Source: Aquificaceae bacterium
GTDB lineage: Bacteria; Aquificota; Aquificia; Aquificales; Aquificaceae
DNA length: 14,451 nucleotides
Direction of reading: 5' to 3'
Assembly: GCA_026983685.1 (NCBI GenBank)
Contig: JALSTO010000122.1
Coordinates: 1-14,451 of the forward strand
Below, piece by piece: positions 2-14,451 of this stretch. Below the pieces are notes generated by a model that was not told the DNA's origin, did not search any database, and saw nothing but the letters and a program-made list of their open reading frames with translations. The position numbers were made by a program, and so were the translations under genes. How positions within the stretch are numbered: position 1 is the stretch's first letter; each line of letters begins with the position of its first letter.

Positions 2-505
2 CCCTGCTACATGTGTGAAGACATACCCTGCGTCCCTGCCTGTCCTACAGGTGCTCTGGAACCAGATCTCGTTTCCACCCTCAGGAACGGCAAAAAGGAG
101 CTTGACATAACTAAGGCGCGCATGGGTGTGGCGGTCATAGACCAGAAGAACTGCATAGCCTACTGGGGGCTCAGGTGTGACGCCTGTTACAGGGTCTGCC
201 CCCTCCTGGATAAGGCTATATACATAGAGCTTTACAGAAACCCCAGAACGGGCAAGCACGCCTTCATGGTTCCCAAAGTTGACCCGGACTACTGCACCGG
301 CTGTGGACTCTGCGAACATGCCTGCGTTACGGAGAAGCCCGCCATATTCGTCCTGCCCAGAGAGATAGCCCTCGGAAGGGCTGGCAAACATTACATGAAG
401 GGCTGGGAGGAGAGCAGAGAGGTTGAGGAACCAAAGGGGACAAGGGGATTAGGACACAAGAGCGCTGAGGACTACCTGAACACGGAGGATCTTCTCAATG
501 AGTGA
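2..505 (+). CDS. napG: NapG ferredoxin-type protein, 5' truncated by window edge
   Basis: C-terminal 167 residues of NapG, the periplasmic iron-sulfur partner of the membrane protein NapH. Together they pass electrons from quinol toward the nitrate reductase NapAB. The reading frame is open from base 2, so the true start lies upstream. Three cysteine clusters are visible: [14 protein letters not shown] near the first base, NC...CDACYRVCP about 50-65 residues in, and [11 protein letters not shown] about 95-105 residues in, each fitting a [4Fe-4S] site. The tail is charged and without further cysteines. The stop at 503-505 overlaps the napH start, which suggests translational coupling. The twin-arginine signal expected for NapG would be outside the window. 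MauM, a related ferredoxin family, is the alternative, but the nap neighbours favour NapG. Confidence 0.9.
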
Positions 506-1349
506 GGAGAGAAAGGGAGTAGGACACTACCTTTACAAGCACAGATTCCTGATCCTGCGTAGGCTCTCCCAGTTTTCTATAATGGCTCTTTACATAGGGG
601 GAAATATCTACGGCTGGAAGATCCTTCGGGGGAACCTGAGCTCCTCAAGGCTTCTTGACACCGTGCCTCTCGCAGACCCCTTTGCGGTTCTCCAGATGTT
701 CTTTGCGGGGGCTATCGTTGCTACCGATGCGCTGATAGGTGCAGGCTTGATACTCGCCTTCTACTCGCTGATAGGAGGGCGTGCCTTCTGTAGCTGGGTG
801 TGTCCGGTGAACGTGGTGACAGACTTTGCCAACTGGCTCAGGGTGAAGACCAAGATACACAGGGAGGAGTGGCAACTCAGGATAACGAGGAAGACGAGGT
901 ATATAGCTCTTGCCCTTGCCCTCATTCTCTCCCTGATACTCGGTATGCCTGCCTTTGAGTACGTTAGTCCCATATCCATACTCCACAGGGGGCTGATATT
1001 CGGAATGGGTCTCGGCTGGACTATGGTCCTTGCCTTATTCCTCTTTGACCTCTTCGTCATAAAGAACGGGTGGTGCGGGCACGTCTGTCCCCTCGGAGGC
1101 TTTTACTCCCTTGTAACAAGACCGAGCCTTATAAGGGTCAACTACAACAAGGAAAGGTGTACCGAGTGCATGGAGTGCGTGAGGATATGCCCCGAGAGTC
1201 AGGTTCTTCATATGGTTGGAAAGCACAGCTCCCTTGTAAAGTCTGGAGAGTGCATAAACTGCGGGAGGTGTGTGGAGGTCTGCAATGACAACGCAATCTA
1301 TTTCTCTTTGAGATTTAAAAAGGAGGAAGTCAGCCATGAGACTAAGTAA
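498..1349 (+). CDS. napH: NapH quinol dehydrogenase membrane subunit
   Basis: Integral membrane iron-sulfur protein of 283 residues that oxidises quinol and hands electrons to NapG. Four hydrophobic segments are visible at about residues 24-42, 63-93, 134-155 and 165-188. Two Cys-x3-Cys-Pro motifs (C98/C102 and C193/C197) follow membrane segments, as is typical of NapH/CcoG-like proteins. The C-terminal domain carries two [4Fe-4S] clusters (C221, C224, C227, C231 and C252, C255, C258, C262). The ATG sits 8 bases after a GGAGG (485-489) and overlaps the end of napG by 8 bases. The 3' end overlaps napB by 14 bases. No napC-type tetraheme gene is seen in the visible part of the operon, consistent with NapGH being the electron entry route. 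Confidence 0.93.
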
Positions 1350-1878
1350 GGAGCTTTTCTTACTGTCCGCAGGAGTTTCTCTGGTGTTTCTGAGCGTAGC
1401 TCAGGCTGTTAAGGAGGTCATCTCCGAAGAGGAGCTGGGCTACAGGAACCAGACCCTCTACGACGAAAAGCCCGTAGCTCCTCCAAAGGTTGAGTTTCCC
1501 AAGAACCCGCCCGGTAGCGGAAAGAAGTTCGCAAGGGCTTACGAGAACGCCCCGCCCCAGATACCCCACTCAATTGAGGGACTCGTTCCCATAAAGCCCG
1601 GTCAGAACGCATGCCTCGGTTGCCACATGCCCGACGTAGCCAAGTCTGTGGGAGCCACACCCGTACCCAAGACCCACATAGCCCTTGACCTCTTCACCAA
1701 AGGAGGAAAGAAGAAGGAGCTTAAGATTGACCCCGCGAGGTATCAGTGTGTTATGTGCCATACTCCTCAGGCTAATGCAAAACCCCTCGTGAAGAACACC
1801 TTTAAGCCCGAGTTCAGGGATCCGCAGGCAAAACAGAGGTCAACCCTTTTTGAGCACTGGAAAGAGGGGCTACCTTGA
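1336..1878 (+). CDS. napB: NapB periplasmic diheme cytochrome c
   Basis: Small electron-transfer subunit of periplasmic nitrate reductase (180 residues). A signal peptide is clear: basic start, hydrophobic stretch about residues 7-22, then an Ala-rich cleavage region ending near AQA. Two CxxCH heme sites occur at C93-H97 and C138-H142. H78 and H114 lie where the distal axial histidines of NapB are expected, so both hemes can be bis-His ligated. An AAGGAGG just upstream (within 1319-1326) supports the ATG, which lies inside the end of napH. The stop TGA (1876-1878) overlaps the TTG start of napF. The protein is exported unfolded and hemes are added in the periplasm, where it partners NapA, whose gene would be left of the window. 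Confidence 0.93.
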   Translation: MRLSKELFLLSAGVSLVFLSVAQAVKEVISEEELGYRNQTLYDEKPVAPPKVEFPKNPPGSGKKFARAYENAPPQIPHSIEGLVPIKPGQNACLGCHMPDVAKSVGATPVPKTHIALDLFTKGGKKKELKIDPARYQCVMCHTPQANAKPLVKNTFKPEFRDPQAKQRSTLFEHWKEGLP

Positions 1879-2345
1879 ACAGGAGAGAGCTCTTTAAAGC
1901 CTTCGTGCCCTCCTCAAAGAGGGAAAGGTTTCTGCCCAGACCACCCGGCAGTAAGGATGACTTTACCTCCTGCAAAGAATGCGATGCACCGTGCATCAGA
2001 GAGTGCGAGACAGGAGTTCTTGTCAGAGATGAGGAGGGCGCACCTTACCTTCTCTTTGAAAGGTCCGGCTGTTCTTTCTGCGGGGTATGTGCCCAAGTCT
2101 GTCCGAAGGGAGTCATATCTGAAGGCTCAAGTACTATAAGGGCAAAGATTGTAATAAATCCGAACATATGCAGTGCCTGGAAAGGAGTTTTGTGCTTTTC
2201 CTGTAAGGAGCCTTGCCTTGACAATGCGATAAGGTTTGAGGGTCTCTACAAACCCGTTGTAGTATCGGAAAGATGCACAGCCTGTGGCTTCTGTGTATCC
2301 CACTGTCCTACTGGAGCCATTGAGGTGAGAGCAAATGTCTCTTAA
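1875..2345 (+). CDS. napF: NapF ferredoxin-type cytoplasmic protein
   Basis: Cytoplasmic iron-sulfur protein of 156 residues associated with NapA maturation. No signal peptide is present. Cysteine groups are at C33/C36/C40/C44, C66/C69/C72/C76, C99/C107/C110/C114 and C134/C137/C140/C144. The second and fourth are classic CxxCxxCxxxCP motifs, and the first and third have altered spacing. This matches NapF, which carries several [4Fe-4S] clusters and interacts with NapA. Translation appears to begin at TTG 1875, sharing bases with the napB stop (TTGA), after a GAGGGG (1864-1869). An alternative start further in would cut the conserved N-terminal RRELF segment seen in the family. The 3' end overlaps the next gene by 11 bases. 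Confidence 0.88.
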   Translation: MNRRELFKAFVPSSKRERFLPRPPGSKDDFTSCKECDAPCIRECETGVLVRDEEGAPYLLFERSGCSFCGVCAQVCPKGVISEGSSTIRAKIVINPNICSAWKGVLCFSCKEPCLDNAIRFEGLYKPVVVSERCTACGFCVSHCPTGAIEVRANVS

Positions 2346-3285
2346 CCTCCTTCTCTTTCTGCTTATAAGCCTCTGCTTTGGTGCGGAGCTTGAAGGAACC
2401 ATTGATGTTGGGCATGCGGTCACAGACATGATCTATAAGAAGGGTATTCTTTATGTTGCCACAGAGCAAGGGGAGGTGAAGTTCATTGACCTTAAAAAGA
2501 AGAAAGTTCTTAGGAGCATTGAGCTTCCCGCCATAAGGGACTTCATGGGAAATCCCATACCGCCGAAGGTCTATTCGGTTGATCTCTCGCCGTCCCGAAA
2601 GGAGCTTCTCATAGTGAGTCAGGCATCGGGAGGCTTTAGCGAGGTTTACACCTACAGAGAGGGAAGGGGCTTTGAAAAGGTCATAGACCTGGGCTGGAAC
2701 CTGATAATAAAAGAAGGGAGATACGTATCCGATGACAGAGCCCTCCTTGCCCTTCTGGGGGATGAGATAGCCCTCATGGACCTGAGGAAGAAGGAGTTTA
2801 TATACAGGGTTCAGGTGGGGCGTTCTTCACTATCCGATATTGACCTGAGCGAAGACAGGCAAAAGGCTGCGGTGTCGGACGAGGCGGGCGTAGTCAGCCT
2901 CGTGAGGGTATCCGATGGCAAGGTGATAAGGCGCTTTAAGGGTGTGAACGTGGACAAGCTCTACAGGCTTGATTACAGGGACGGGAAGATACTCGTCGGA
3001 GGAAGGGACAGGAGGGTAGCCCTCTACTACACCGACGGCGATAAGTACAGGAAATTTCCCGCAAGGTTCTTAGTCTTCTCGGTTGCAATGGACAGCTCTG
3101 CAAAGCTGGGTGCATACCTTTACAACGAACACAGCGATGTAAGGGTGATTGAGCTTGAATCCGGAACTGAGGTAGCTATGCTCAGAGGACACACCTACCC
3201 GGTCAGTGTTATGCTCTTCCTTGACGGGAAGCTCCTGACCGGGTGCGATGACGGAAAGATATTTATATGGAGGTTAGAGAGATGA
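2335..3285 (+). CDS. napL: NapL-type secreted beta-propeller (WD40-like) protein
   Basis: Protein of 316 residues with an N-terminal hydrophobic export signal (about residues 3-17) and no lipobox that I can see. The body is a run of short beta-strand blocks separated by charged turns (for example residues 30-60, 115-150 and 160-190), ending in a clear WD40-type repeat: GHTYPV near residue 283 and IFIWRLER at the extreme C-terminus. This fits a seven-bladed propeller closed by the last strand. In epsilonproteobacterial nap operons a periplasmic propeller protein, NapL, sits between napF and napD; its role is not firmly established. Position and fold are the basis of the call. The start overlaps napF by 11 bases and the stop overlaps the napD start as ATGA. 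Confidence 0.78.
   Translation: MSLNLLLFLLISLCFGAELEGTIDVGHAVTDMIYKKGILYVATEQGEVKFIDLKKKKVLRSIELPAIRDFMGNPIPPKVYSVDLSPSRKELLIVSQASGGFSEVYTYREGRGFEKVIDLGWNLIIKEGRYVSDDRALLALLGDEIALMDLRKKEFIYRVQVGRSSLSDIDLSEDRQKAAVSDEAGVVSLVRVSDGKVIRRFKGVNVDKLYRLDYRDGKILVGGRDRRVALYYTDGDKYRKFPARFLVFSVAMDSSAKLGAYLYNEHSDVRVIELESGTEVAMLRGHTYPVSVMLFLDGKLLTGCDDGKIFIWRLER
3270..3274 (+). promoter_or_regulatory. Shine-Dalgarno site deciding the napD start
   Basis: GGAGG lies 7 bases before ATG 3282 and downstream of the alternative ATG at 3267, so it supports the shorter NapD product. Confidence 0.7.
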
Positions 3286-3632
3286 ACATATCGGGAGTTG
3301 TGGTGAGAACCAAACCCGAGAATCTGGAGCAGGTAATCAGGGAGCTTGAGGAATCGGGGATGTGTGATGTCCACTTCCACGACGATAAGGGAAGGATAAT
3401 AGTTACCATAGAGGCGGAGACTACCGAGGAGGAGATATTCAAGCTCAAGGCTATCCAGTCCCTTGAGAACGTCCTCTCAGCAGACCTTGTCTATGCCTAT
3501 AGCGAAGAAGAGCTTGAAAAGGCGAGAGAAGAGATAGTGATGGAGAAGGGAGCACTGCCGAAGCTGATAGAGGAAGACGTCCCCGCGGAGAGGATAAAGT
3601 ACTACGGACATATATATAAGGAGTATGAGTAG
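3282..3632 (+). CDS. napD: NapD chaperone for NapA export
   Basis: NapD binds the twin-arginine signal peptide of NapA and holds the enzyme in the cytoplasm until the molybdenum cofactor is inserted. From ATG 3282 the protein has 116 residues, beginning MNISGVVVRTKPENLEQVI. That is the typical NapD opening: a beta strand, then the Pro-Glu segment leading into the first helix of a ferredoxin-like fold. I chose this start over the in-frame ATG at 3267 because GGAGG at 3270-3274 lies 7 bases before it, and because it forms an ATGA overlap with the napL stop. The C-terminal 35 residues are charged and extend past the usual NapD core of about 80-90 residues. It is the last nap gene here; about 490 bases of non-coding sequence follow. 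Confidence 0.88.
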   Translation: MNISGVVVRTKPENLEQVIRELEESGMCDVHFHDDKGRIIVTIEAETTEEEIFKLKAIQSLENVLSADLVYAYSEEELEKAREEIVMEKGALPKLIEEDVPAERIKYYGHIYKEYE

Positions 3633-4120: not shown

Positions 4121-4133
4121 CAGTATGAGCTTT

Positions 4134-4140
4134 GGGGAGG
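4134..4140 (+). promoter_or_regulatory. Shine-Dalgarno site deciding the cas10 start
   Basis: GGGGAGG ends 8 bases before the in-frame TTG at 4149. It lies inside the coding frame opened by ATG 4125, which has no such site and sits only 4 bases after the TATAAT box. Confidence 0.65.
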
Positions 4141-4148
4141 TTGGTTTT

Positions 4149-6530
4149 TTGCAGGGGAGAGAGCTCATAGCCCTGGGAGGACTACTCCACGACATAGGCA
4201 AGTTCGTCCAGAGGGCAACAAACAAGAAAGCTCAAGAAAAAGAACATTTTGGATACGCACACGCTGAGCTGAGCTACCAAGAAAGCAAAAGGATACTCCA
4301 ATTGTTTGATATAGAAGGTGTGGGTAGAGAGTTGGTTCTTTCTTCTTGCTTTCACCACAACCCATCCACAACCCATCCTGAAGCGAGCCCTGAGCTCAGA
4401 TGGTTAAGAGCACTGTTCAGGCTTGCGGATTGGTATGCTTCAACGGAAAGAAGCTCTCTTACGGATGTAGAAAATGAGGAAAAGTACAAAAGACTCAGGT
4501 CTATTTTTGAAGCTGTAAGTCTGGAAGGGGAAGCACAGCCTTCAATAGTAAGGCTTTCTCCTCTCTCCCTTGATGAAGATGTTATATTTCCGAAACCTCT
4601 TAAAGAGGCTCAAGATTACGCAAAACATGGTGAGGAAGAACAGTACTATGAATATTACGGAGATTATTCAAAACTATGGCAAGATTACAACACCTTCCTT
4701 GAGAATATTCCTTCTAAGAGCATGACCTCCCTAAGCCAGAAGCTCAGCCTGCTTTATCACCTGATGTATAAATACACCTGGTGCATTCCTGCCTCAATAT
4801 ACGATAGGGAAAGGTATCACTCCCATTATCCAGACATATCCTTGTTTGACCACTCAAGGGTAGTTTCTGCCCTCGCTACCGCTCTTTACACTGATGAAAA
4901 CAAAAAGCTCCTTTCAGGATACGATGATAGCAAGAGAGAGGAATTTGCAAGTAAACTTAAGCTCATCCTCTTTGAAGGAGACATAAGTGGAATCCAAAAG
5001 TTTCTTTATGACATAACGAATATAAAGGGTGTTTCTAAAAGGCTCCGGGGCAGGAGCACTTTCCTCGCTTTCCTGCCTGAGATCGTTGGAAGATCCGTTC
5101 TGAAGGAGCTCGGCTATCCGTGGACCAGTATGCTCTATGTGGGAGGAGGTAAGTTTCAGGCGGTCGTGGGTTATGAAGAAGGCATAGAGGAGAGGCTCTA
5201 TGAGGTGGGAGGAAAGGTGGAAGAGGCTCTTATAAGGGAGTTTGGGGGTAAGCTCGGGTTTGTCATATACCACACGGATATGGTTCTATCTGACCTGAAA
5301 GATTACCAGCAAGTTATAAAGAAGCTTATGGAGGAAGGTCAGAGAGCTAAAAAGAGGAAGTTCTCTAAAACCCTCATGAACTTTGAAACCCTTGCCAATG
5401 GGAATGTTCGGAGGAAGGTAAAGCTCTGTCTCTCCTGTAGGTGGGAGGCTGTGGAGGAGGAAGAAGAAACCTGCCACTGGTGTGAGAAGTTTGCAGAGGT
5501 GGGAGGTAAGATTCCAAAAAGCGTATATGTAGCCTTTTCCTCCAGGCCTGTGGATAGATACATAGACAGAGGTTTTCATATAGATGGTCTGGGCGCAGTT
5601 TACTTCTTTAAAGAAATAGAAACTACAAGTGGGTTTGAAGATATCTTCGTTATAAACGATACCCGGAGATTTACCGAAGATAAATACTCAACAGGCTTCA
5701 AATTTCTTGCCCAGAGCGTTCCCTTTGAAGAGGGAGGTTCTGGAGAGATAAAAACTTTTGAAGAGCTTGCCCAAGAAGCTAACGGAGACAAGAAGATTGC
5801 GTACGTTAGAGCGGATGTTGATAATCTTGGCCTCATTTTCATGAAGGGTTTAGAAGGAAACTATACCGTCTCTCGTGTTGCCACTCTAAGCAGAAGTCTT
5901 GATCTCTTTTTCTCAGGATACCTGAATACCCTCTTTTCTAAAGAGTTTCCCAACAAGATATACACAGTCTATGCGGGCGGTGATGATCTTTTTATAGTCG
6001 CTCCCTGGGACATTGCTATAAAGGCTATAGGCAGGATAAGAGAGGAATTCAGATACTTTACATGTCACAACAGCTCCTTCGGACTTTCTGCTGGAGTTTA
6101 CATCACTGGAGGCACCTATCCCATAAGGCTTGCTGCGGATGGAGCTGAGCAAGCGGAATTAAAGGCGAAGTCTGCTCCAGGTAAGGATAGTATAAGCATA
6201 CTTGGAGAGGTTCTGAGGTGGGAGGAGCTTAGGGAGAGGACTGAACAGATAGAGGAGGTAGTCAGAAGAGTTATTGAAAAGCAGATAGGAAGAACAAACC
6301 TATACAGGATCTACATGCTCTTGAGAGAGTATAGAGAAGGGAGTGAAAAGGAAAGGTACATGTTCTATCCTTTCTTCTATTACTATCTTTTGAGAAATGT
6401 AAAGGACGAACGGAATAGGGAAATGATAATAGACCTTTTCTTGGATAAATCTAAGGACTATGAAGTTAGGATCTCTGCCCTCTTCAGTGCCAAGTACGTC
6501 CTCATGAGAACAAGGGATGTCAGACACTGA
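4149..6530 (+). CDS. cas10: Cas10/Csm1, type III-A signature protein with HD and GGDD domains
   Basis: Large subunit of the Csm complex. It cuts single-stranded DNA with its HD domain and makes cyclic oligoadenylate with its palm domain when target RNA is bound. I start it at TTG 4149 (793 residues); the ATG at 4125 would add 8 residues. Numbered from TTG, the HD motif is H14-D15 in LLHDIGK, with a second histidine pair in the following helices (SSCFHHNPS). The first palm domain begins near GDISGIQKF (about residue 278). A four-cysteine zinc site lies at C427, C430, C442 and C445. The second palm carries ADVDNLG and the intact GGDD at 610-613, so cyclase activity is expected. A helical C-terminal domain follows. 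Both active sites look complete, which supports a signalling type III system. Confidence 0.96.
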   Translation: MQGRELIALGGLLHDIGKFVQRATNKKAQEKEHFGYAHAELSYQESKRILQLFDIEGVGRELVLSSCFHHNPSTTHPEASPELRWLRALFRLADWYASTERSSLTDVENEEKYKRLRSIFEAVSLEGEAQPSIVRLSPLSLDEDVIFPKPLKEAQDYAKHGEEEQYYEYYGDYSKLWQDYNTFLENIPSKSMTSLSQKLSLLYHLMYKYTWCIPASIYDRERYHSHYPDISLFDHSRVVSALATALYTDENKKLLSGYDDSKREEFASKLKLILFEGDISGIQKFLYDITNIKGVSKRLRGRSTFLAFLPEIVGRSVLKELGYPWTSMLYVGGGKFQAVVGYEEGIEERLYEVGGKVEEALIREFGGKLGFVIYHTDMVLSDLKDYQQVIKKLMEEGQRAKKRKFSKTLMNFETLANGNVRRKVKLCLSCRWEAVEEEEETCHWCEKFAEVGGKIPKSVYVAFSSRPVDRYIDRGFHIDGLGAVYFFKEIETTSGFEDIFVINDTRRFTEDKYSTGFKFLAQSVPFEEGGSGEIKTFEELAQEANGDKKIAYVRADVDNLGLIFMKGLEGNYTVSRVATLSRSLDLFFSGYLNTLFSKEFPNKIYTVYAGGDDLFIVAPWDIAIKAIGRIREEFRYFTCHNSSFGLSAGVYITGGTYPIRLAADGAEQAELKAKSAPGKDSISILGEVLRWEELRERTEQIEEVVRRVIEKQIGRTNLYRIYMLLREYREGSEKERYMFYPFFYYYLLRNVKDERNREMIIDLFLDKSKDYEVRISALFSAKYVLMRTRDVRH

Positions 6531-6551: not shown

Positions 6552-7037
6552 ATGGAGGGAAGTATAGTGTTCAGAGTTATGAAAGATATTGAGGCTTTTA
6601 AGAGCCCTATAGGTCAGTTTTTTAAACTGATAGCCGAACTAAGTGAAGAGGTCTATAGAAATCTTGGCGAAGGCTTTCCAGAAGAGATATATCAGAAAGC
6701 TCTCCAGTTTGAAATGAGGGAAAAGGGTATAAGCTTTCAAAGGGAGGTAAATATTGAGATATTCTATAAGGGAATACCTCTTGGTTTTGACAGACCAGAC
6801 TTCATTGTTAGACCCTGCCAGCTCTCTGGAGGAAAACCCGTGGTAATAGAGCTAAAAGCTGTAAAAAAGCTCGGTGAAAAGCACATAACGCAGGCTAAAA
6901 CCTATCTAAGGTCCCTTCCTCATGCTTCCGATGGAGAACTTAAAGACTGTAAGCACTGCATACTGATAAACTTTCCAGATAATAATAATGGAAGTGTTGA
7001 ATGTTTTCTTATAGAAAGAGAGGAGGTGGAGAGATGA
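6552..7037 (+). CDS. GxxExxY-family PD-(D/E)XK nuclease-like protein
   Basis: Protein of 161 residues inserted between cas10 and csm2. It carries the family signature G41-x2-E44-x2-Y47 in a helical segment. It also has a nuclease-fold core, a strand ending in D83 (RPDF) followed by E100-L-K102 (VIELKAVKKL), the pattern of PD-(D/E)XK enzymes. All three expected catalytic positions are present, so activity on nucleic acid is possible, but the family (GxxExxY / PDDEXK_3) has no settled function that I know of. No membrane segment or sensor domain is visible. It follows cas10 by 21 bases and overlaps csm2 as ATGA, so it is co-expressed and coupled with the Csm subunits. Its codon use resembles the neighbouring csm genes. 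A CRISPR-ancillary role is an inference from position. Confidence 0.82.
   Translation: MEGSIVFRVMKDIEAFKSPIGQFFKLIAELSEEVYRNLGEGFPEEIYQKALQFEMREKGISFQREVNIEIFYKGIPLGFDRPDFIVRPCQLSGGKPVVIELKAVKKLGEKHITQAKTYLRSLPHASDGELKDCKHCILINFPDNNNGSVECFLIEREEVER
7021..7026 (+). promoter_or_regulatory. Shine-Dalgarno site deciding the csm2 start
   Basis: AGGAGG lies 7 bases before ATG 7034. The earlier in-frame ATG at 7001 lacks such a site and would put csm2 37 bases into the preceding gene. Confidence 0.75.
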
Positions 7038-7438
7038 GAGATAATACATACTCTGTTGAATCTCTTGTGAGCAGACTAAAGAGAGAGCCTTTAAATTCCA
7101 TACCTCCCAGTGAACTCTTAAAGCCCCGTAAATTCGCTTATTCTATAGCCAAGCAGTTAAAAATTAGGCGTGCTCAGTTAAGAAGGATTTACGGAGAGCT
7201 TAAAGCTATCTTTGAAGATGTGAAAAAGAGAGGAAGCTTTGATGATGAATCGCTAACAAAGCTCTACATGCTGTATCCTATTCTTGAATATCAGAGGAGT
7301 AGAAATTTAGTCGGTTCTGATTTTGTGAAGCTGATAACAGCTCTTCTGGAGAATGTGGAGCAGTTTAGCGAACAGGAGAACATAGACATGGTTGATAAGT
7401 TCCTCACAGCGTTAGTTGCCTATGCAAGAGATAAGTAA
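7034..7438 (+). CDS. csm2: Csm2, small subunit of the type III-A complex
   Basis: All-helical protein of 134 residues forming the inner filament of the Csm complex beside the Csm3 backbone. The diagnostic stretch is LYMLYPILEYQRSRN near residues 76-90, which matches the Csm2 family pattern, preceded by basic helices (about residues 30-60: RKFAYSIAKQLKIRRAQLRRIY). The length is normal for Csm2. The ATG at 7034 overlaps the stop of the GxxExxY gene. Csm3 begins 12 bases after the stop, with AAGGAGG between. No enzymatic residues are expected; its role is to shape the channel that holds crRNA and target RNA. Confidence 0.9.
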   Translation: MRDNTYSVESLVSRLKREPLNSIPPSELLKPRKFAYSIAKQLKIRRAQLRRIYGELKAIFEDVKKRGSFDDESLTKLYMLYPILEYQRSRNLVGSDFVKLITALLENVEQFSEQENIDMVDKFLTALVAYARDK

Positions 7439-7450
7439 AGGAGGGTTGAG

Positions 7451-8383
7451 ATGAAGTACACAGGCTCTTACATCATCAATTATAAGCTCAAAGCCCTTAC
7501 AGGTTTGAGGGTGGGAGGTTCAAAAGAAGAATTTGATATTGGAGGTACTGACAACCCTGTCATGAAAGTGCCCGCGGATATACCTGATTACTACGGTGAG
7601 AACAGACCACTTCCCAAAGGAGCTCCCTACATACCCGGCTCTTCAATCAAGGGGAAGATGAGAAGCCTCCTTGAATGGGTCTATGGGCGGGTGGAAGATA
7701 ACATCACATCAGAAGAAGCCCTTAAGGTTCAAAAAAAGGTGGGACAAGCCAAAAGAGCTTACGAAGAGGCGCTCAGAAAAGGAAATATTGAAGAAATTAA
7801 CAGGGCTAAAAAGAACTTCAGTGATGCTGTTGAGGAATATACAAAAGTAGCTGGAAGGGTTTGCAGTTGTGGAAAGTGCCCTGTATGCATTGTTTTCGGA
7901 ATAGGAGAAATAGATACCTACAAGGAACTCTTACCAGAAGAACAGCCTGGACCCCCAAGGGCAAAGTTCTTTGATCTTTATCCTACAGAAGAGACCCTTA
8001 GCAACCTTCAAGAAGCCTTAGGTAGGGGGATCTTCACAGAGATAAAAACGGAGAATCAGATCAACCGCATAACCTCTCGTGCAAATCCTCGTAAAGTGGA
8101 GAGGGTTCCAGCAGGAGCTGTTTTTGAAGGCACCATAGTCTTTGACTGCTACAAAGAAGGTGATGAAAACCTTCTCAAGGTAGTCCTGCAAGGTATGCAG
8201 AAGCTTGAAGATAACTTCCTTGGAGGCTATGGCTCAAGAGGCTCAGGGAGGATTAAGTTTGAGGATATAGAGATAAGGTGGAGACCTGCGGAGTTCTATA
8301 AGAGTGGCACAGGTGAAGAGGTAAAGGGCAAGTTCAGCACACTCATGGAGGCAATGGAGAGCCTGGGAGAAATAAAGGGATGA
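7451..8383 (+). CDS. csm3: Csm3, backbone RAMP and target-RNA nuclease
   Basis: Repeated backbone subunit that binds crRNA and cuts target RNA every six bases. The catalytic aspartate of the family is present as D34 in GGTDNPVMK. The RAMP core motif PYIPGSSIKGKMRSLLEW is at 59-76, and the glycine-rich GGYGSRGSGRIKF is at 258-270. The protein is 310 residues, longer than the roughly 215-220 of well-studied Csm3. The extra length includes a charged, probably helical insertion at about 82-135 just before a four-cysteine group (C138, C140, C143, C146), plus a C-terminal extension after residue 275. The stop overlaps the csm4 start. AAGGAGG (7437-7443) lies 7 bases before the ATG. Confidence 0.93.
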   Translation: MKYTGSYIINYKLKALTGLRVGGSKEEFDIGGTDNPVMKVPADIPDYYGENRPLPKGAPYIPGSSIKGKMRSLLEWVYGRVEDNITSEEALKVQKKVGQAKRAYEEALRKGNIEEINRAKKNFSDAVEEYTKVAGRVCSCGKCPVCIVFGIGEIDTYKELLPEEQPGPPRAKFFDLYPTEETLSNLQEALGRGIFTEIKTENQINRITSRANPRKVERVPAGAVFEGTIVFDCYKEGDENLLKVVLQGMQKLEDNFLGGYGSRGSGRIKFEDIEIRWRPAEFYKSGTGEEVKGKFSTLMEAMESLGEIKG

Positions 8384-9318
8384 TGCCCAAGAAAACACTC
8401 AGAGTTGACTTCCTACCCCGTTCCGCCTTCAAAGGGTATCCAGATAGTTATACTCTCTTCGGTGCTATATGCTGGGGTATAAGGGTTCTTGAAGGAGAAG
8501 AAGCCCTAACAGATATGCTTGAAAAGTTTAAAGAAAAACCTCCCTTTTTAATATCCTCTCCCGTTTTTATCAGGAAAGGGAAGCTTTTCTTTCCCAGACC
8601 TGCCCTTGAAGAGAACTCAGAGGAGGAGCTTACTCCTGAGAGTTACAGCTTGAGGAAGAAGGTTAAGAAGGCTAAGTACGTTAGCGAAGACGCCTTCAGA
8701 GCTGTGCTTGAAGGAAAGGTAAGGACAAGCGGGGAGCTTTCCAAGTTCACAGAAGAAGGTGAATTTTACAGCAGTTTGAACACCATCCATGCAAGTATAA
8801 ATAGGATAACCTGGACTACCAGTGGGGGAGAGCTTTACAACGAAGAGGTCTACTATTTTTCCCTTCCATTCTCAGTTTTCTTTCTCTTCTATCAGGAAGA
8901 GTTTGAAGCACTCGTGAAGTCAGCCCTGCGCTTTGTTCAACTTGGTGGTAATAGATCTACTGGTATGGGAAGATATAAAGTTATATTTGGAGACGTACCT
9001 GAGTGGTTTATAAAACACCTTGAGCCTACTGAAAACTTTATAAGCCTTTCTCCACACTTCTATGATGATTCTTTTGTGCTTGAAGAAAGCCTCTATGAAC
9101 CCAAACCTCTGATGGGAATTGTAGATAACTATTTCTACGCACCTACCCCAGCAATAATAAAGCGAAAGGTGATGTACATTGACAGAGGCTCCAATATAAG
9201 GGTTAAGAACAGAAAGGACTTCTACGGTGGACTTAAGGAAGTCGTGAGAGACGAAGGAAGGAATGTAACGGTTTATCAGTACGGGTACGCCTTTCCTCTC
9301 TATGTGAGGTGGCAGTAA
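8380..9318 (+). CDS. csm4: Csm4, RAMP subunit at the crRNA 5' end
   Basis: RAMP protein of 312 residues that holds the 5' handle of crRNA and contacts Cas10. It opens with a RAMP strand and helix (LRVDFLPRSAFKGYPDSYTLFGAICWGIRVL), typical of Csm4. A conserved arginine/glycine segment LGGNRSTGMGRY lies at about 188-199. The last third is beta-rich and less conserved. It begins at ATG 8380 (or the adjacent ATG 8383) overlapping the csm3 stop, and its TAA stop overlaps the csm5 ATG. No nuclease residues are expected. I am confident of Csm4 rather than Cmr3 because of the order csm2-csm3-csm4-csm5. Confidence 0.9.
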   Translation: MMPKKTLRVDFLPRSAFKGYPDSYTLFGAICWGIRVLEGEEALTDMLEKFKEKPPFLISSPVFIRKGKLFFPRPALEENSEEELTPESYSLRKKVKKAKYVSEDAFRAVLEGKVRTSGELSKFTEEGEFYSSLNTIHASINRITWTTSGGELYNEEVYYFSLPFSVFFLFYQEEFEALVKSALRFVQLGGNRSTGMGRYKVIFGDVPEWFIKHLEPTENFISLSPHFYDDSFVLEESLYEPKPLMGIVDNYFYAPTPAIIKRKVMYIDRGSNIRVKNRKDFYGGLKEVVRDEGRNVTVYQYGYAFPLYVRWQ

Positions 9319-10421
9319 TGAAGATAGAGGCCATTACACCAGTCCATATAGGAAGTGGGGAGGAGATAATACCTTGGGAATACAGCATCGTAGGAAAGAA
9401 ACTCGGCATATATCCCGTGGACTACATAGTTTCATCCCTTGCGAATATATATAAAGGTGCACGCTTAAGAAACCTGCTGATCGCCCTCAGGAATGAAGTT
9501 AAGGAGTATGGCTTTAAGAAAAGCTTTGGAGACTTTCTTAGGAGTGAAAGGATAGCTCTTGAACCCCTATACACTCTTGAATTTAGAACTAACCTCAGAG
9601 GTGGAGGAGAGTATAGAACTGTAAAGAGCTTTATAAAGAGCAAAGATAGAGTTTACATTCCCGGCTCGGAGATAAAGGGTGCTCTCAGGACCGCCTTTAT
9701 CTTCGGAGTTATCCTGAGGGAGATTAAAAAAGAAAATTACTCTCTTTTGGGGAGAATTGTAAGTATAGTGAAGAGAGCACTGCAAACCAAAGAATGGGGA
9801 GAAGCTTCTTCAAAAATTGAGTCCCTGATTCTGAGGAGAGGTTCTCCTAACGATGCAAGGTACGACCTTTTCAGAGCGATTGAAGTCTCTGACAGTACTG
9901 AGGCTGAACCTTCTGGAACTCTATATGTGGATTCGGTTAATGTAATCGGTGCAAGTGAGTCCATACAAGAAATTGACGAACTTCTCAAGCCCAGCAGGAG
10001 CTTTGAGGTAGAGGTGCATATAGATGAGGACTCAAAGAAAGCCCTCTCAAAAATTACGGATAACCCCTACGTTGAACTGCTTGACCTTGAGTTTTTGAAA
10101 GAGAGTGCTACTGAGTTTTACAAATTCCTACTTGATGTAGATAGGAAATATTTTGATAAACATGCCTATGAGATAAGTGGAGACCCACTCAAGGAACCTG
10201 AGGAGGCTCTTACAAGAGGGGATTTTCTGCTGAGGATAGGTAAACATCAGGGATTCTTAAGTATGACTCTAACTATCACCATTCTTATGGGGGACAAGGG
10301 GCTCTATGAAAAGCTCTACAAGGGGGTTGTACCTAAATTTAGTGGTGGGATTAACAAAACGAGAAAGCTGACTTCGGAGGGTAAAGCCCTCGGCTGGTGC
10401 AGGCTGGCGGAGGAAAGCTGA
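9318..10421 (+). CDS. csm5: Csm5, RAMP subunit capping the crRNA 3' side
   Basis: RAMP protein of 367 residues at the head of the Csm complex, needed for crRNA maturation in characterised systems. It starts with the family opening IEAITPVHIGSGEE and has the RAMP core VYIPGSEIKGALRTAF at about 112-127. A C-terminal FSGGINKTRKL segment probably supplies the glycine-rich loop. I use ATG 9318 rather than GTG 9309, because AGGTGG (9307-9312) lies 5 bases before the ATG and TAATG overlaps the csm4 stop. This is the last gene with the lower-GC composition of the csm module; the next gene starts one base after its stop. Confidence 0.9.
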   Translation: MKIEAITPVHIGSGEEIIPWEYSIVGKKLGIYPVDYIVSSLANIYKGARLRNLLIALRNEVKEYGFKKSFGDFLRSERIALEPLYTLEFRTNLRGGGEYRTVKSFIKSKDRVYIPGSEIKGALRTAFIFGVILREIKKENYSLLGRIVSIVKRALQTKEWGEASSKIESLILRRGSPNDARYDLFRAIEVSDSTEAEPSGTLYVDSVNVIGASESIQEIDELLKPSRSFEVEVHIDEDSKKALSKITDNPYVELLDLEFLKESATEFYKFLLDVDRKYFDKHAYEISGDPLKEPEEALTRGDFLLRIGKHQGFLSMTLTITILMGDKGLYEKLYKGVVPKFSGGINKTRKLTSEGKALGWCRLAEES

Positions 10422-10422
10422 G

Positions 10423-11628
10423 ATGAAGACCCTCATTACCACCCTCGGGAGGGGTCAGTTTAATAAAGAGACAAAGGAGTTTGACTACTTTGAGGTTCCC
10501 TACAGGCTTTCCGATGAAAAGACCTACAGGACCAAGCTCGTTGCCCGTGCGCTCGTTGAGTATCTCAAGCCCGACGAGGTTTACGTTGTGGGCACATCAG
10601 AGTCCCTCTGGAATCTGGCGGACAATCTTATAGGGAACTACAAAAGGGTAGAGATACCTTACGGCAAAAGTCAAGAAGAGTTCTGGGAGATGTTCAGAAA
10701 AGTTTACTCAATTGATGTTGAGGGTAAGGAGCTATACATAGACATAACTCACGGCTTCAGGTCTATACCCCTGATGACCACGACGATGGTAAGCCTCTTT
10801 ACAAAGGTAAAGGGTGCGCACATAAAGGGGGTTTACTACGGCATATACGAGGCGAAGTCCGAGGACGGCACCGTTCCCATAATTGACCTTCTGCCCTTCA
10901 TAGAGCTAAACGAGTGGATAGAGGGCTTTACCCTGCTCACCCGATATGGGGACGGGCTTTCCATTGCGGAGCTGGTAAAGAAGAAAGCAGAAGGTTACCC
11001 CGACAGAAAGGGTCTCGGAAGGATAAACTCCCTCCCCAAGGTTCTTGAGAAGTTCTCTCAGGCGGTTAGCTTCAATGCCCTTGAGCTGATAACAAAATCC
11101 ACAAAGGACCTGATAGACTGCCTTGAGAAGGTTGACAAAATCCCCACGGGCTTTGAGGCTCTGGAGCTTTTAAAGGATGCCATTCTCTCAGAAGCCCTCA
11201 AATTTGCCTCCTACAAAAGCGTGTGGGAAAAACAGCTTAAGCTCGTCAAGTGGCTATTTGAGAAGAGAAGATACTCAGAGGCACTCATTGCTCTGGAAGA
11301 AACTATCTTTACTTACATAATGGAGAGCCTCCGCAAAGACTACCTTGATGACAGCAGGAGGAAGTTGGGAGCGGTGTTCAGGGAGGACTGCGAGAGCCAC
11401 AGGCTCTTTACAAAGGATATGAACAAACTCTTTAGCAGAATTCAAGAACTCAGAAACAAAACGGGACATGCCTTTATGAAGAAGAGCACGAGTGAGGGGG
11501 ATATAAAGGAAGCCATAAACAACTTAAGAGACTACATCAAAACCGCGGAGGAACTGCTCAAAGAAGGCAGAGTCGTAAAGGACTTTACAGCTTTGAGGGA
11601 AGCTCTGGAGGCTTGTCCGGAGGCTTGA
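10423..11628 (+). CDS. csx1: CARF-HEPN ribonuclease, Csx1/TM1812 type
   Basis: Ancillary type III effector of 401 residues, expected to be switched on by cyclic oligoadenylate. The N-terminal CARF region (about 1-150) has a first strand MKTLITTLGRG and the segment I106-DITHGFRSIP, which is characteristic of the TM1812-like Csx1 group. The C-terminal helical half contains a HEPN RNase motif R344-x4-H349 (RNKTGH), so a metal-independent, sequence-relaxed RNase is likely. GGAGG (10409-10413) supports the ATG, which begins one base after the csm5 stop. Sampled composition is near 55% GC, unlike csm5, so it may have a different history from the Csm module although it is transcribed with it. The ligand ring size cannot be read from sequence by eye. 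Confidence 0.9.
   Translation: MKTLITTLGRGQFNKETKEFDYFEVPYRLSDEKTYRTKLVARALVEYLKPDEVYVVGTSESLWNLADNLIGNYKRVEIPYGKSQEEFWEMFRKVYSIDVEGKELYIDITHGFRSIPLMTTTMVSLFTKVKGAHIKGVYYGIYEAKSEDGTVPIIDLLPFIELNEWIEGFTLLTRYGDGLSIAELVKKKAEGYPDRKGLGRINSLPKVLEKFSQAVSFNALELITKSTKDLIDCLEKVDKIPTGFEALELLKDAILSEALKFASYKSVWEKQLKLVKWLFEKRRYSEALIALEETIFTYIMESLRKDYLDDSRRKLGAVFREDCESHRLFTKDMNKLFSRIQELRNKTGHAFMKKSTSEGDIKEAINNLRDYIKTAEELLKEGRVVKDFTALREALEACPEA
11619..11623 (+). promoter_or_regulatory. Shine-Dalgarno site for the acidic membrane protein
   Basis: GGAGG at the very end of csx1 stands 7 bases before GTG 11631, favouring that start over TTG 11613 or TTG 11625. Confidence 0.6.
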
Positions 11629-11630
11629 GG

Positions 11631-11945
11631 GTGGAGTATATTCTCTTTGCCCTTTTGGGTTTGTTACCTTTCGGTCTCTACAGGTGGCTCAGGTCAGAGG
11701 AGGATACCTCGGACTCATACGCTACCCATTGGGAAGACGATGACAGCTCGGAAGAAGATGAAGATATAACAAGGTATTCTGATACCGACAACTATTACTA
11801 CAGCTCAATTTCAGACACGGAGGACGATACAGACCCCCTAACCGACCCTTCCTACTGCTTTATGGAAGGGAATATATACCACGATATATGCCACGACGAT
11901 GACCACTGGGACAATGATTGGGACAGCTGGGATGATGACTGGTAG
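11631..11945 (+). CDS. Small single-span membrane protein with highly acidic tail, function unknown
   Basis: I do not recognise this protein. From GTG 11631 it has 104 residues. Residues 3-17 are hydrophobic (YILFALLGLLPFGLY) and are followed by RWLR, so a single membrane span with the C-terminus in the cytoplasm is likely by the positive-inside rule. The remaining roughly 84 residues contain about 32 Asp or Glu and almost no Lys or Arg, plus many Tyr and Trp. The end is a run of D/W/H (HWDNDW then DSWDDDW). Low sequence complexity and strong negative charge suggest a disordered tail, a metal-binding tail, or a nucleic acid mimic; none is proved. It begins 2 bases after csx1, so it belongs to the CRISPR operon. 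A chance open frame is possible but unlikely, given the Shine-Dalgarno site and tight packing. Confidence 0.65.
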   Translation: MEYILFALLGLLPFGLYRWLRSEEDTSDSYATHWEDDDSSEEDEDITRYSDTDNYYYSSISDTEDDTDPLTDPSYCFMEGNIYHDICHDDDHWDNDWDSWDDDW

Positions 11946-12438
11946 TCAGTTCTTTATGTTCATGTCAGGAGGATATTATAATAGCTTTAAAGTATTGGAA
12001 TGCAGGGTATTGAGGGCATATACAGGGAGCTTATTGGGAAGAGGGGGGGAGAAGTTCTTAGGAATTGTTAGATATGACTCTCTCAAGTATCTTGAGGAGC
12101 TTCTCAATACCGATCTCGGGGTAAAGATTCGCGTACTCGCTGGAGAAGACCCGAGAAAGGCGAGACCCTTCATAGGATGGGTGTCGGGAGGCTTTATCAC
12201 CATCGTTTTCCTGACAGCGAACAGAAAGAGGATAAAGATTGACATGAGTTTCTGCAAAAAGCTTGATGAAGAGTGTAAATGGATAAAAGAAAGATGTTAC
12301 GTCCTTGAAGACTGGAGAAGGGGAGGCGTATTCAGATACAAACTCAGGGAGGAGCTTCTGGAGGATTACGTTCTATGTGGTAGATGCGATGATCTGGATT
12401 TCCTTGAAGAGCTGAGGGAAGTTAAGCATGAAGGATAA
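11935..12438 (+). CDS. Hypothetical protein between csx1 and the sigma factor gene
   Basis: Unrecognised protein of about 167 residues. The start is uncertain: in-frame ATGs occur at 11899, 11932, 11935, 11956 and 11962, none with a convincing Shine-Dalgarno site. I give 11935 because it makes a short overlap with the preceding stop, as elsewhere in this operon. After a weak first 20 residues there is a mixed alpha/beta core: strand-rich LECRVLRAYTG and KFLGIVRYD, then LKYLEELL, IRVLAG, and the hydrophobic GWVSGGFITIVFL followed by KRIKID. The C-terminal third is rich in charge and cysteine (FCKKLDEEC, KERCYVLED, CGRCDD). The CxxC near the end could bind metal. It overlaps the sigma factor gene by 11 bases, so it is probably a partner of the sigma/protease cassette, but no function can be assigned. 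Confidence 0.7.
   Translation: MTGSQFFMFMSGGYYNSFKVLECRVLRAYTGSLLGRGGEKFLGIVRYDSLKYLEELLNTDLGVKIRVLAGEDPRKARPFIGWVSGGFITIVFLTANRKRIKIDMSFCKKLDEECKWIKERCYVLEDWRRGGVFRYKLREELLEDYVLCGRCDDLDFLEELREVKHEG
11977..11982 (+). promoter_or_regulatory. Possible internal -10 box upstream of the sigma/protease cassette
   Basis: A perfect TATAAT lies within the early coding part of the hypothetical gene. The hexamer 17 bases upstream (TTATGT, 11954-11959) is a poor -35. If real, it could drive the sigma factor, MazF-like and Lon genes separately from csm. A chance match is quite possible. Confidence 0.25.
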
Positions 12439-13060
12439 GATCGTAGCACTACTTGAAGGAGACCTGCAGGCGAAAGAATTCTTTCTGAGGGAGATAAAGA
12501 AGGTAGCGGGCGAGATGGAGCCTCTCCTAAAAGCACGCCTGGAGGATGACTACGGCGAGGAGATCCTCTCAGACCTTCTGCTAAAGCTCCTGATAATGAA
12601 GGATGCTCTCCTTCAGAAGGAAAAGATAAACAGGAGCTACCTGCACAAGGTGATAAGGTCATGCATAATTGACAGACTCAGCAGAGAAGGTAAGCTACAA
12701 ACCCTTAGCATGGACAGACCTCTATGGGAGGATGACGAGGGGGAGATAAGGAGCTTTGAGGAAGTTTTCGGTGTGGAGGAGAACAGGGACCTTAAGATAG
12801 AGGCTGGGACGCTTTTTGATGAGATCATGTCCTTTCTCTCTGAGAAGGACAGAGACGTCCTTTGCTACTACCTTTATAAGGAGCTCTACAACAAGGAGGT
12901 AAAGGTAGAGGGGATTTCCAAGGGAGCTCTTTACAAGCGGTGGGAGAGGTTAAAGGCTAAGATAAACAGAAAGCTCTCCTTTGTGCCTACGCAAGAGGAG
13001 TTCAGGCTATTTGCGGAAAGATTTCTGTCAGAAGTCTGCACAAAGAGAGGTTTTAAGTAA
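12428..13060 (+). CDS. calpS: ECF-like sigma factor, CalpS candidate
   Basis: Protein of 210 residues with the two domains of an ECF-type sigma factor. The sigma-2 region spans about 30-88 and contains YLHKVIRSCIIDRLSREG (71-88), which matches the region 2 pattern that opens the -10 element. The sigma-4 region spans about 135-185: LSEKDRDVLCYY, then a helix-turn-helix with GISKGALYKRWERLKAKI as recognition helix. A short C-terminal extension (186-210) follows. It is preceded by the hypothetical gene (11-base overlap) and followed by the MazF-like gene (TAATG overlap), then the Lon-type protease. This trio matches the CalpS-CalpT-CalpL arrangement of type III systems, where the sigma factor is held inactive until CalpT is cleaved. 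The symbol rests on context; the sigma fold itself is clear. Confidence 0.82.
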   Translation: MKDKIVALLEGDLQAKEFFLREIKKVAGEMEPLLKARLEDDYGEEILSDLLLKLLIMKDALLQKEKINRSYLHKVIRSCIIDRLSREGKLQTLSMDRPLWEDDEGEIRSFEEVFGVEENRDLKIEAGTLFDEIMSFLSEKDRDVLCYYLYKELYNKEVKVEGISKGALYKRWERLKAKINRKLSFVPTQEEFRLFAERFLSEVCTKRGFK

Positions 13061-13842
13061 TGAGCGGAGAAAAGAATATGCAGGAGATTCTATACAGGAA
13101 CTTTATAAAAAGTCTCGGAGACGAGGTTCTCGTCGTCTCCGCTCCTGAGCCCCCTGAGCCAGGACAGGTAAGGCTCTACCTAATGACTCCTCCCGAATAC
13201 GTCCTTATAACGGAAAAGGTGCACGAAGACCTCTACGAGGTCGTCCCCCTCACCTCATACATCCCGCTCGCTATCACCGATAGATATCCTCCCGTGATAG
13301 AGTGGAGAGGACTGAGACTTGTCCCCCTTCCCTTCGTAGTCTATATAGCAAGGAGCCTGCTGGAAAGACACTCGGAGCCCGTATTCAGGGTAAGAGAGGG
13401 TTTGGAAAAGGTGAGCGAGTACGCAAACACCGCAAGGATAAAAGGCATAGGAAAGTGGAGAGAAAAATTTATAAAAAAGAACATACAGAGATGGAAGGAC
13501 ATTAACCTTTCGTCTATCATTGCGGACGTCCTGTCCGCGGAAGCTCAGGAGGAAGCCCCGGTGGTGATAGAGTTTCCAAGCGCGCTTTTTGAGGAAAGGA
13601 ACCTTCCGCTTGCCGCTCAGCCCGCAACTGCCTTCAGAGGGGAGAACTGGCTGGGGGTTTTGGAAGAGGGGAAGCTTTACCTCTACCTGCCTGAGGAGTG
13701 TGAAGGGAAGAATATCAGGATAAGCTACCGGGGAAATGTTCTGTATGAAGGTCCGGCTTCACCCGTGGTGGTTTTGAAAAACGTGCCGGAAAGATTAACA
13801 GACCTTGAGGAGGAGCTCAATGTTCAGGTTCTCGGGGATTGA
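13060..13842 (+). CDS. calpT: MazF-like protein, CalpT candidate (sigma-factor inhibitor cleaved by Lon-SAVED)
   Basis: Protein of 260 residues. Residues 20-70 resemble the small beta barrel of MazF/PemK proteins: GDEVLVVSAPEPPEPGQVR, then PEYVLITEK and YEVVPLTSYI, which parallel the MazF strands around the proline-rich loop and the V-P-L-T motif. Residues 95-160 are helical and basic in part. A Pro/Ala/Glu-rich, probably flexible stretch at about 160-195 leads to a compact beta-rich end (196-245). CalpT of Sulfurihydrogenibium is described as a MazF homologue that binds the sigma factor CalpS and is cut by CalpL. The gene order and domain plan here agree. Start ATG 13060 overlaps the sigma stop; ATG 13078 is a possible alternative. 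Toxin activity is not implied. The assignment is by resemblance and context. Confidence 0.68.
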   Translation: MSGEKNMQEILYRNFIKSLGDEVLVVSAPEPPEPGQVRLYLMTPPEYVLITEKVHEDLYEVVPLTSYIPLAITDRYPPVIEWRGLRLVPLPFVVYIARSLLERHSEPVFRVREGLEKVSEYANTARIKGIGKWREKFIKKNIQRWKDINLSSIIADVLSAEAQEEAPVVIEFPSALFEERNLPLAAQPATAFRGENWLGVLEEGKLYLYLPEECEGKNIRISYRGNVLYEGPASPVVVLKNVPERLTDLEEELNVQVLGD

Positions 13843-14451
13843 TCAGAAACATCTTCTTAAACTCCTGAGGGCTGGCGAGCTTGACGAATATATTGACGAG
13901 CTCTTTTCCCAATTCTGGGAGCTTCCTTCCGCTGTTCAGTTTGAGATCGTCAGGTATGTGAAGGAGAGGTCCGTCTTTCCCTCAATAACTACCTTACAGG
14001 ATACCTTCCGCCTGGATTACGAAGACGCAAAGAGGCTTTTGAATACTCCCCACAGGGAGTTCTTAGTTCCAGCAGTTAACGGGGCAGGCAGGGGGCTTCT
14101 CGTAAGTGGACTTTCTATAAGGGGAACTAAGGGGCTTATAACAAATCAGAGACATCTGCTCCAGAGCATGGAGGTCATAAAGAGCTTCCTCGGAGAGGGC
14201 TTTGCCCTTTTCTTTAGTGCTGATATAGGTGGGGAAAGCTACATGCTACCCGCTGTAGTGAGTATGTATATTGATAAACCACCGCCGGAGGCGGTCTTTA
14301 CAGGAAAGATAGATGAAAAAGGCAACATATACGAGGTGAACGGGCTTCCCCAAAAGAGGAAAGCTGTCCGAGAAAAGGGGCTCAGGCTCGTTGAACCCTC
14401 CCGCCTGACCCGGCTTCAGGACCTCAAGAGCTGGTGTGATGCCAAGTCCTA
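13820..14451 (+). CDS. calpL: Lon-type Ser-Lys protease domain, CalpL candidate, 3' truncated by window edge
   Basis: The first 210 residues are visible and the frame is still open at the window end. GAGGAGGAG (13807-13815) supports ATG 13820, which overlaps the MazF-like gene by 23 bases. Residues 1-75 are a helical N-terminal region. Residues 90-200 match the Lon proteolytic domain: S140 in GGESYMLPAV occupies the nucleophile position, and FTGKIDEKGNIYEVNGLPQK (160-179) aligns without gaps to the Lon strand-loop that ends in the catalytic lysine, giving K179. There is no AAA+ ATPase before it, unlike classical Lon, but as in CalpL. A C-terminal SAVED domain that binds cyclic tetra-adenylate would be expected downstream and cannot be seen here. 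The flanking sigma and MazF-like genes strengthen the CalpL call. Confidence 0.8.
   Translation, partial: MFRFSGIDQKHLLKLLRAGELDEYIDELFSQFWELPSAVQFEIVRYVKERSVFPSITTLQDTFRLDYEDAKRLLNTPHREFLVPAVNGAGRGLLVSGLSIRGTKGLITNQRHLLQSMEVIKSFLGEGFALFFSADIGGESYMLPAVVSMYIDKPPPEAVFTGKIDEKGNIYEVNGLPQKRKAVREKGLRLVEPSRLTRLQDLKSWCDAKS

Follow-up and report, generated by a model that had tools for sequence, protein, structure and literature searches.

The closest described relative of the locus studied here is the Calp system of Sulfurihydrogenibium sp. YO3AOP1 (structures 7qda, 8b0r and 8b0u), which likewise combines a Lon-SAVED protease (CalpL), a CalpT protein with a MazF-like N-terminal and a CalpT10-like C-terminal domain, and a sigma factor (CalpS). 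A more distant parallel is Craspase (Csx29-Csx30-sigma), known to share with Calp a CRISPR-switched protease, cleavage of an inhibitor and a sigma factor; Craspase belongs to type III-E, uses a caspase-like protease and is activated by target RNA without cyclic tetra-adenylate (cA4). Here we describe a Calp cassette on a 14,451-nucleotide stretch of Aquificaceae DNA (hereafter the window, meaning the whole stretch), where it lies downstream of a type III-A CRISPR operon, and we report that Calp apparently comprises four genes, the fourth of which lies directly upstream of calpS and encodes a MazF-like protein. The literature covered, as far as its available parts go, describes Calp as CalpL, CalpT and CalpS only, and an earlier description of the fourth gene is possible.

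A Calp cassette with a fourth gene

The cassette comprises the following features, all on the + strand:

11956..12438, +, fourth gene of the cassette, MazF-like with four conserved Cys, directly upstream of calpS (R70 at 12163-12165, T87 at 12214-12216)
12428..13060, +, calpS, extracytoplasmic function (ECF)-like sigma factor (PADLOC HTH 1.5e-62)
13060..13842, +, calpT, MazF-like N-terminal and CalpT10-like C-terminal domain (PADLOC Unk_02 2.5e-54, CRISPR-T 2e-21)
13612..13617, +, predicted CalpL cut site in CalpT, A185/A186 (alignment to the start of 8b0u CalpT10)
13820 (ATG)..14451, running past the window end, +, calpL 5' part, N-terminal Lon domain (7qda CalpL 5.7e-9; PADLOC CRISPR-Lon 4.6e-47)

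A first-pass annotation of this DNA had proposed a Calp-type cassette resembling that of Sulfurihydrogenibium, with overlapping sigma-factor, MazF-like and Lon genes downstream of cas10-csm5-csx1. All of these frames and their profile matches are present on the + strand, calpS and calpT overlapping by 1 base and calpT and calpL by 23, and each of the three proteins matched a dedicated PADLOC profile (HTH, CRISPR-T/Unk_02 and CRISPR-Lon; the N-terminal part of CalpL also matched three further related Lon profiles). CalpS matched TIGR02937 (sigma70-ECF) at 4.3e-7 over residues 44-183, which is under that family's curated cut-off. The middle protein was rightly read as CalpT: beyond the CalpT families, its C-terminal domain matches the solved CalpT10 fragment (8b0u) and its N-terminal domain the MazF fold, and no confident match to a family unrelated to CalpT overturned this reading. 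The predicted cut falls in a low-confidence linker (residues 181-188, predicted local distance difference test score <50) and would yield fragments of 21.3 and 8.4 kDa. In CalpL, a putative Lon Ser-Lys pair is encoded at 14237-14239 (Ser) and 14354-14356 (Lys), the Ser of GESY aligning with chain position 152 of 7qda and the PQKRK Lys with its counterpart in the 7qda stretch, residues that we take to be catalytic in Lon. Judged by these sequence features, namely the Lon-SAVED architecture (its SAVED half is treated below), the Ser-Lys pair, the CalpT10 domain with Ala at the cut, the MazF-like domain and the adjacent sigma factor, the cassette as such is a further member of the known Calp system, and the comparison with Sulfurihydrogenibium held. 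It differs from that system in its type III-A operon with Csx1 and in low sequence identity (the two CalpL halves match 7qda at 5.7e-9 and 1e-12). The order sigma, MazF-like, Lon is as proposed, and it is not special to the window: locus L060, whose CalpL is the same as 7qda in the stretches compared by eye, has this order too, with a fourth gene upstream. Thus, the best-studied Calp locus appears to have the fourth gene as well.

It was this gene that the first-pass annotation had missed, its three-gene makeup being otherwise correct. We placed its start at 11956, after the open reading frame at 11613-11945 (the longest frame is 11899-12438), so that it overlaps calpS by 11 bases. The fourth gene immediately precedes calpS, in the same orientation, in 61 of the 63 fetched loci with calpS (all but L077 and L120), and in 51/53 after reduction to <80% CalpS identity; measured from first possible start codons, it overlaps calpS in 50 of the 61, most commonly by 4 bases. 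The 63-locus count omits L002 and five repeats of counted genomes (L073, L080, L082, L084 and L086), and, since the final profile was built from 61 members of the same family, it is not an independent discovery test for those loci. Five loci outside the profile all carried the gene (5/5), the copy in L153 being cut short before its last two Cys, and distant fourth proteins in L054, L055, L058, L060 and L066 were reached only by sensitive search (E 8e-11 to 0.004). Conversely, the family has 56 matching places in 136 genomes of the window's phylum, of which 54 lie beside calpS or calpT by coordinates; the remaining two, L131 (an 80-aa fragment) and L137 (at a contig end), are without visible calpS. 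Evolutionarily, fourth-protein distances correlate with those of CalpS, CalpT and CalpL at r 0.86 to 0.87 across 30 loci, compared with 0.87-0.93 among those three, a correlation to which host phylogeny alone could contribute (the test omits L002, L035, L036, L041-L044, L053, the window and loci missing any of the four genes). In L033, L035, L036 and L044 (L036 corresponding to Thermocrinis record L086), the fourth gene stands as two tandem copies upstream of calpS.

Fold and motifs of the fourth protein

Structurally, an AlphaFold2 model aligned with VIA-align suggested a MazF-like arrangement for the fourth protein; Foldseek gave no useful match. Arg-Pro occurs at the MazF position in 61/61 fourth proteins and Thr or Ser at the second MazF position in 61/61, positions that are catalytic in MazF, and four Cys are near-invariant. 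By comparison, none of 30 CalpT sequences has Arg-Pro at that position, with an Arg nearby in 6. The Arg-Pro and Thr/Ser positions, and probably the fold arrangement, are shared with MazF/PemK/CcdB toxins; unlike PemK relatives, the fourth protein has no Pfam PemK match, a shorter Arg-to-Thr spacing and the four-Cys site. Pfam PemK_toxin was not among 10 families listed for 24 fourth-family members, and no listed PF02452 place in the 136 genomes coincides with a Calp cassette. When their profiles were compared directly, the fourth protein and CalpT showed no homology (probability 0.1%), a weak test because CalpT itself scored low against PemK (17.7 and 15.5), and searching the PDB with a profile of the fourth family brought up chance matches only. 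The window protein matched no family at E<=10, PADLOC C3a162 (PDLC01080) included; this profile covers one branch of the family only, matching 20/53 members, with the L060 protein at 2.3e-60, and it was not mentioned among the papers listed in literature searches on C3a162, CalpS, CRISPR-S sigma and CalpT MazF.

The SAVED half of calpL

The first-pass annotation had suggested looking for SAVED by extending the contig. This half of calpL lies outside the window on an overlapping contig of the same genome (G000:C65:2-940). Window positions 14317-14451 overlap G000:C65:1-135, with 126 identical bases followed by 3 differences in the last 9, and the reading frame continues on C65 for 312 aa, ending in a SAVED domain (PF18145 3e-18; NF033611 3.1e-24). 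Against a single intact relative, L042, the window half aligns at 72% identity and the C65 half at 73%, in segments that follow on from one another and overlap. Because of this fit and the contig overlap, we regard it as very likely that the calpL of the window runs into the SAVED domain of C65. That the Lon half instead belongs to a degenerate or chimeric gene is suggested by the contig stopping inside the gene and by the 3 terminal differences, and is highly improbable given a 126-base identical overlap in frame and halves that fit a single intact relative. The divergence after the identical bases suggests strain variation in the sample, with the window contig (C122) and C65 perhaps representing alleles from two strains.

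The nearest solved structure to the C65 half is AcrIII-2 of the Thermocrinis Great Boiling Spring virus (9r8s, 5.1e-45), followed by CalpL (1e-12). AcrIII-2 differs from CalpL in being a stand-alone viral anti-CRISPR without Lon. By alignment, the C65 half has the same residues as AcrIII-2 at the R, K, H and Q positions, which the available part of PMC12751052 presents as studied ring nuclease positions, and Ala at the position of AcrIII-2 Ser194 (numbering offset inferred); L039 and L042 also have Ala there (ACPVPVAF), while most other aligned rows have Ser. As an S194A change left AcrIII-2 converting hardly any cA4 at a 10:1 ratio (PMC12751052, in the part available), the CalpL of the window may be a slow ring nuclease.

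Proposed mechanism and role of the fourth protein

Functionally, we propose that a Csm complex on viral RNA would lead Cas10 to make cA4, which, once bound by SAVED, would cause CalpL to stack and switch on its Lon domain. CalpL would then cut CalpT at A185/A186, so that the MazF-like N-terminal fragment, with CalpS bound to it, comes apart from the C-terminal fragment. CalpS, once freed, would redirect RNA polymerase, and SAVED may also degrade cA4 and so end the response, in this case perhaps slowly. To this the fourth gene would add a protein of probable MazF fold in which the Arg and Thr/Ser used by MazF are retained; Arg-Pro is absent from the MazF-like domain of CalpT. Gene identities, order, motifs, the position of the cut site and the near-universal linkage of the fourth gene rest on sequence and fold; cA4 activation, CalpT cleavage and ring nuclease activity would follow by analogy with published work on relatives, and any function of the fourth protein is inferred. 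The account as a whole, a type III-A system with Csx1 and a four-gene Calp cassette in which the CalpT cut frees CalpS, is one that we hold with good confidence.

We think that the fourth protein most probably acts together with CalpT, either as an RNase or as an RNA-binding partner. MazF works as a dimer, and a putatively live MazF-like protein encoded beside a putatively dead one by neighbouring, mostly overlapping genes suggests that CalpT, besides CalpS, could also bind the fourth protein, a single cut then releasing the two. In its strongest form, Calp would be a four-protein, two-output switch, in which CalpT is a dead MazF paired with a live one, much as in the MazF dimer, and one cA4-driven cut releases both the sigma factor and an RNase of MazF type, the system as a whole being an anti-sigma switch and a toxin-antitoxin switch at once; we offer this tentatively and think it rather unlikely in full. 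It is quite possible, at somewhat less than an even chance, that Calp is a three-part system after all and that the fourth gene encodes a co-translated, non-catalytic accessory, such as a chaperone or adaptor that carries zinc and helps to detach CalpS from the CalpT fragment. The four near-invariant Cys, which suggest a structural metal site, fit such a role, as does the existence of MazF-like folds in non-enzymes, of which CalpT is probably one; a mere scaffold, on the other hand, need not keep Arg-Pro and Thr/Ser at the MazF catalytic positions in every one of 61 proteins. A first preprint on CRISPR-Lon reportedly bore a title suggesting a death switch, and the cassette could be read as mainly that, with the MazF-like CalpT fragment itself the toxin. 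The absence of Arg-Pro at the MazF position from all 30 CalpT sequences makes this very unlikely, and in later papers, in the parts available, CalpT figures as an anti-sigma factor. The available part of PMC11417357 supposes, by analogy, that ClpX/P releases CalpS, and this too would suit an accessory that assists release.

A gene found in 61/63 fetched loci from two phyla may be missing from Calp reconstitutions, and it may explain what finishes CalpS release and whether the response also blocks translation. Its role can be put to a direct test beside thermophilic CalpL and CalpT, for both of which E. coli has served as expression host (PMC11417357, in the part available).

Promoters of the cassette

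The first-pass annotation had also hoped that the locus could help define the genes under CalpS control, an expectation that our searches did not bear out, as we found no convincing shared two-part promoter upstream of cassettes and cas10 genes. Among 53 non-redundant upstream regions (36 cassette, 17 cas10), the top two-word spaced motif occurred 10 times, and 40 shuffles gave counts of up to 11. Taken one by one, three G/C-containing words were conspicuous (e.g., 7 regions versus 0.6 expected), but they had been picked from very many words. A TATAAT -10 box precedes the fourth gene in 13/39 regions, compared with an average of 1.6 and at most 5 over 200 shuffles, and is not present in the window's own region upstream of the gene. 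This enrichment fits a housekeeping-type promoter and points to constitutive expression from the cassette head.

Distribution and variant loci

Within the window's phylum, the PADLOC CalpS profile was found in 42/136 genomes and CalpT in 63/136. CalpT also occurs in 9/41 genomes of the order around L079 (Thermodesulfobacteriota) and in 3/297 genomes spread over Thermodesulfobacteriota. A divergent CalpL branch of 560-593 aa (L118:6342-8051, L119, L120, L121:5952-7640, L122, L125 and L066) carries a C-terminal ring nuclease domain of Crn2/AcrIII-1 type, with matches to PF08960 at 5.7e-21 and 1.1e-20 in the two tested, a match of L118 to STIV B116 at 4.4e-15, an ISHxxTA motif in 7/7 aligned and a SAVED match that is weak or absent. 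We predict that this branch is a self-limiting Lon-SAVED-Crn2 fusion; the available part of PMC12409355 mentions Crn2 fusions to Csx1 only.

Other loci depart from the common layout. In L036, a single 640-aa frame (6737-8656) joins CalpT without its last part to CalpL without its first part, an apparent deletion fusion. L083/L135 and L127 have calpT and calpL with upstream sequence and neither calpS nor the fourth gene, and L128 and L130 have calpT alone, with no visible calpS or fourth gene; in these loci CalpT/CalpL may sometimes work without the other two genes, or may be decaying. In L076, L081, L085 and L136 the locus is truncated at a contig end.

The type III-A operon and its surroundings

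Upstream of the cassette, the window encodes the following type III-A genes:

4125..6530, +, cas10/csm1 (TIGR02578 1.7e-173; GGDD at residue 618, HD at residue 22)
7001..7438, +, csm2 (PF03750 5.7e-12)
7451..8383, +, csm3 (TIGR02582 5.6e-54)
8380..9318, +, csm4 (TIGR01903 1.6e-42)
9309..10421, +, csm5 (PADLOC Csm5 1.7e-35)
10423..11628, +, csx1, CARF-HEPN (PADLOC Csx1/Csm6 1.4e-77; RNKTGH, R-x4-H, at residue 344)

Cas10 is predicted to be cyclase-competent by the GGDD at residue 618, and the type III-A CRISPR system at this locus has two outputs of the cA4 type, namely Csx1 and the Calp cassette. Between cas10 and csm2, positions 6552-7037 encode a PD-(D/E)XK nuclease-superfamily protein (PF13366 1.8e-25), and between csx1 and the cassette the product of the small open reading frame at 11613-11945 is hydrophobic at its N-terminus and strongly acidic in its tail; neither has a relative among the frames of the fetched Calp loci compared. 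Upstream of cas10, positions 2-3632 hold nitrate-reductase genes (ferredoxin-type, NapB and NapD) and a WD40-like beta-propeller frame.
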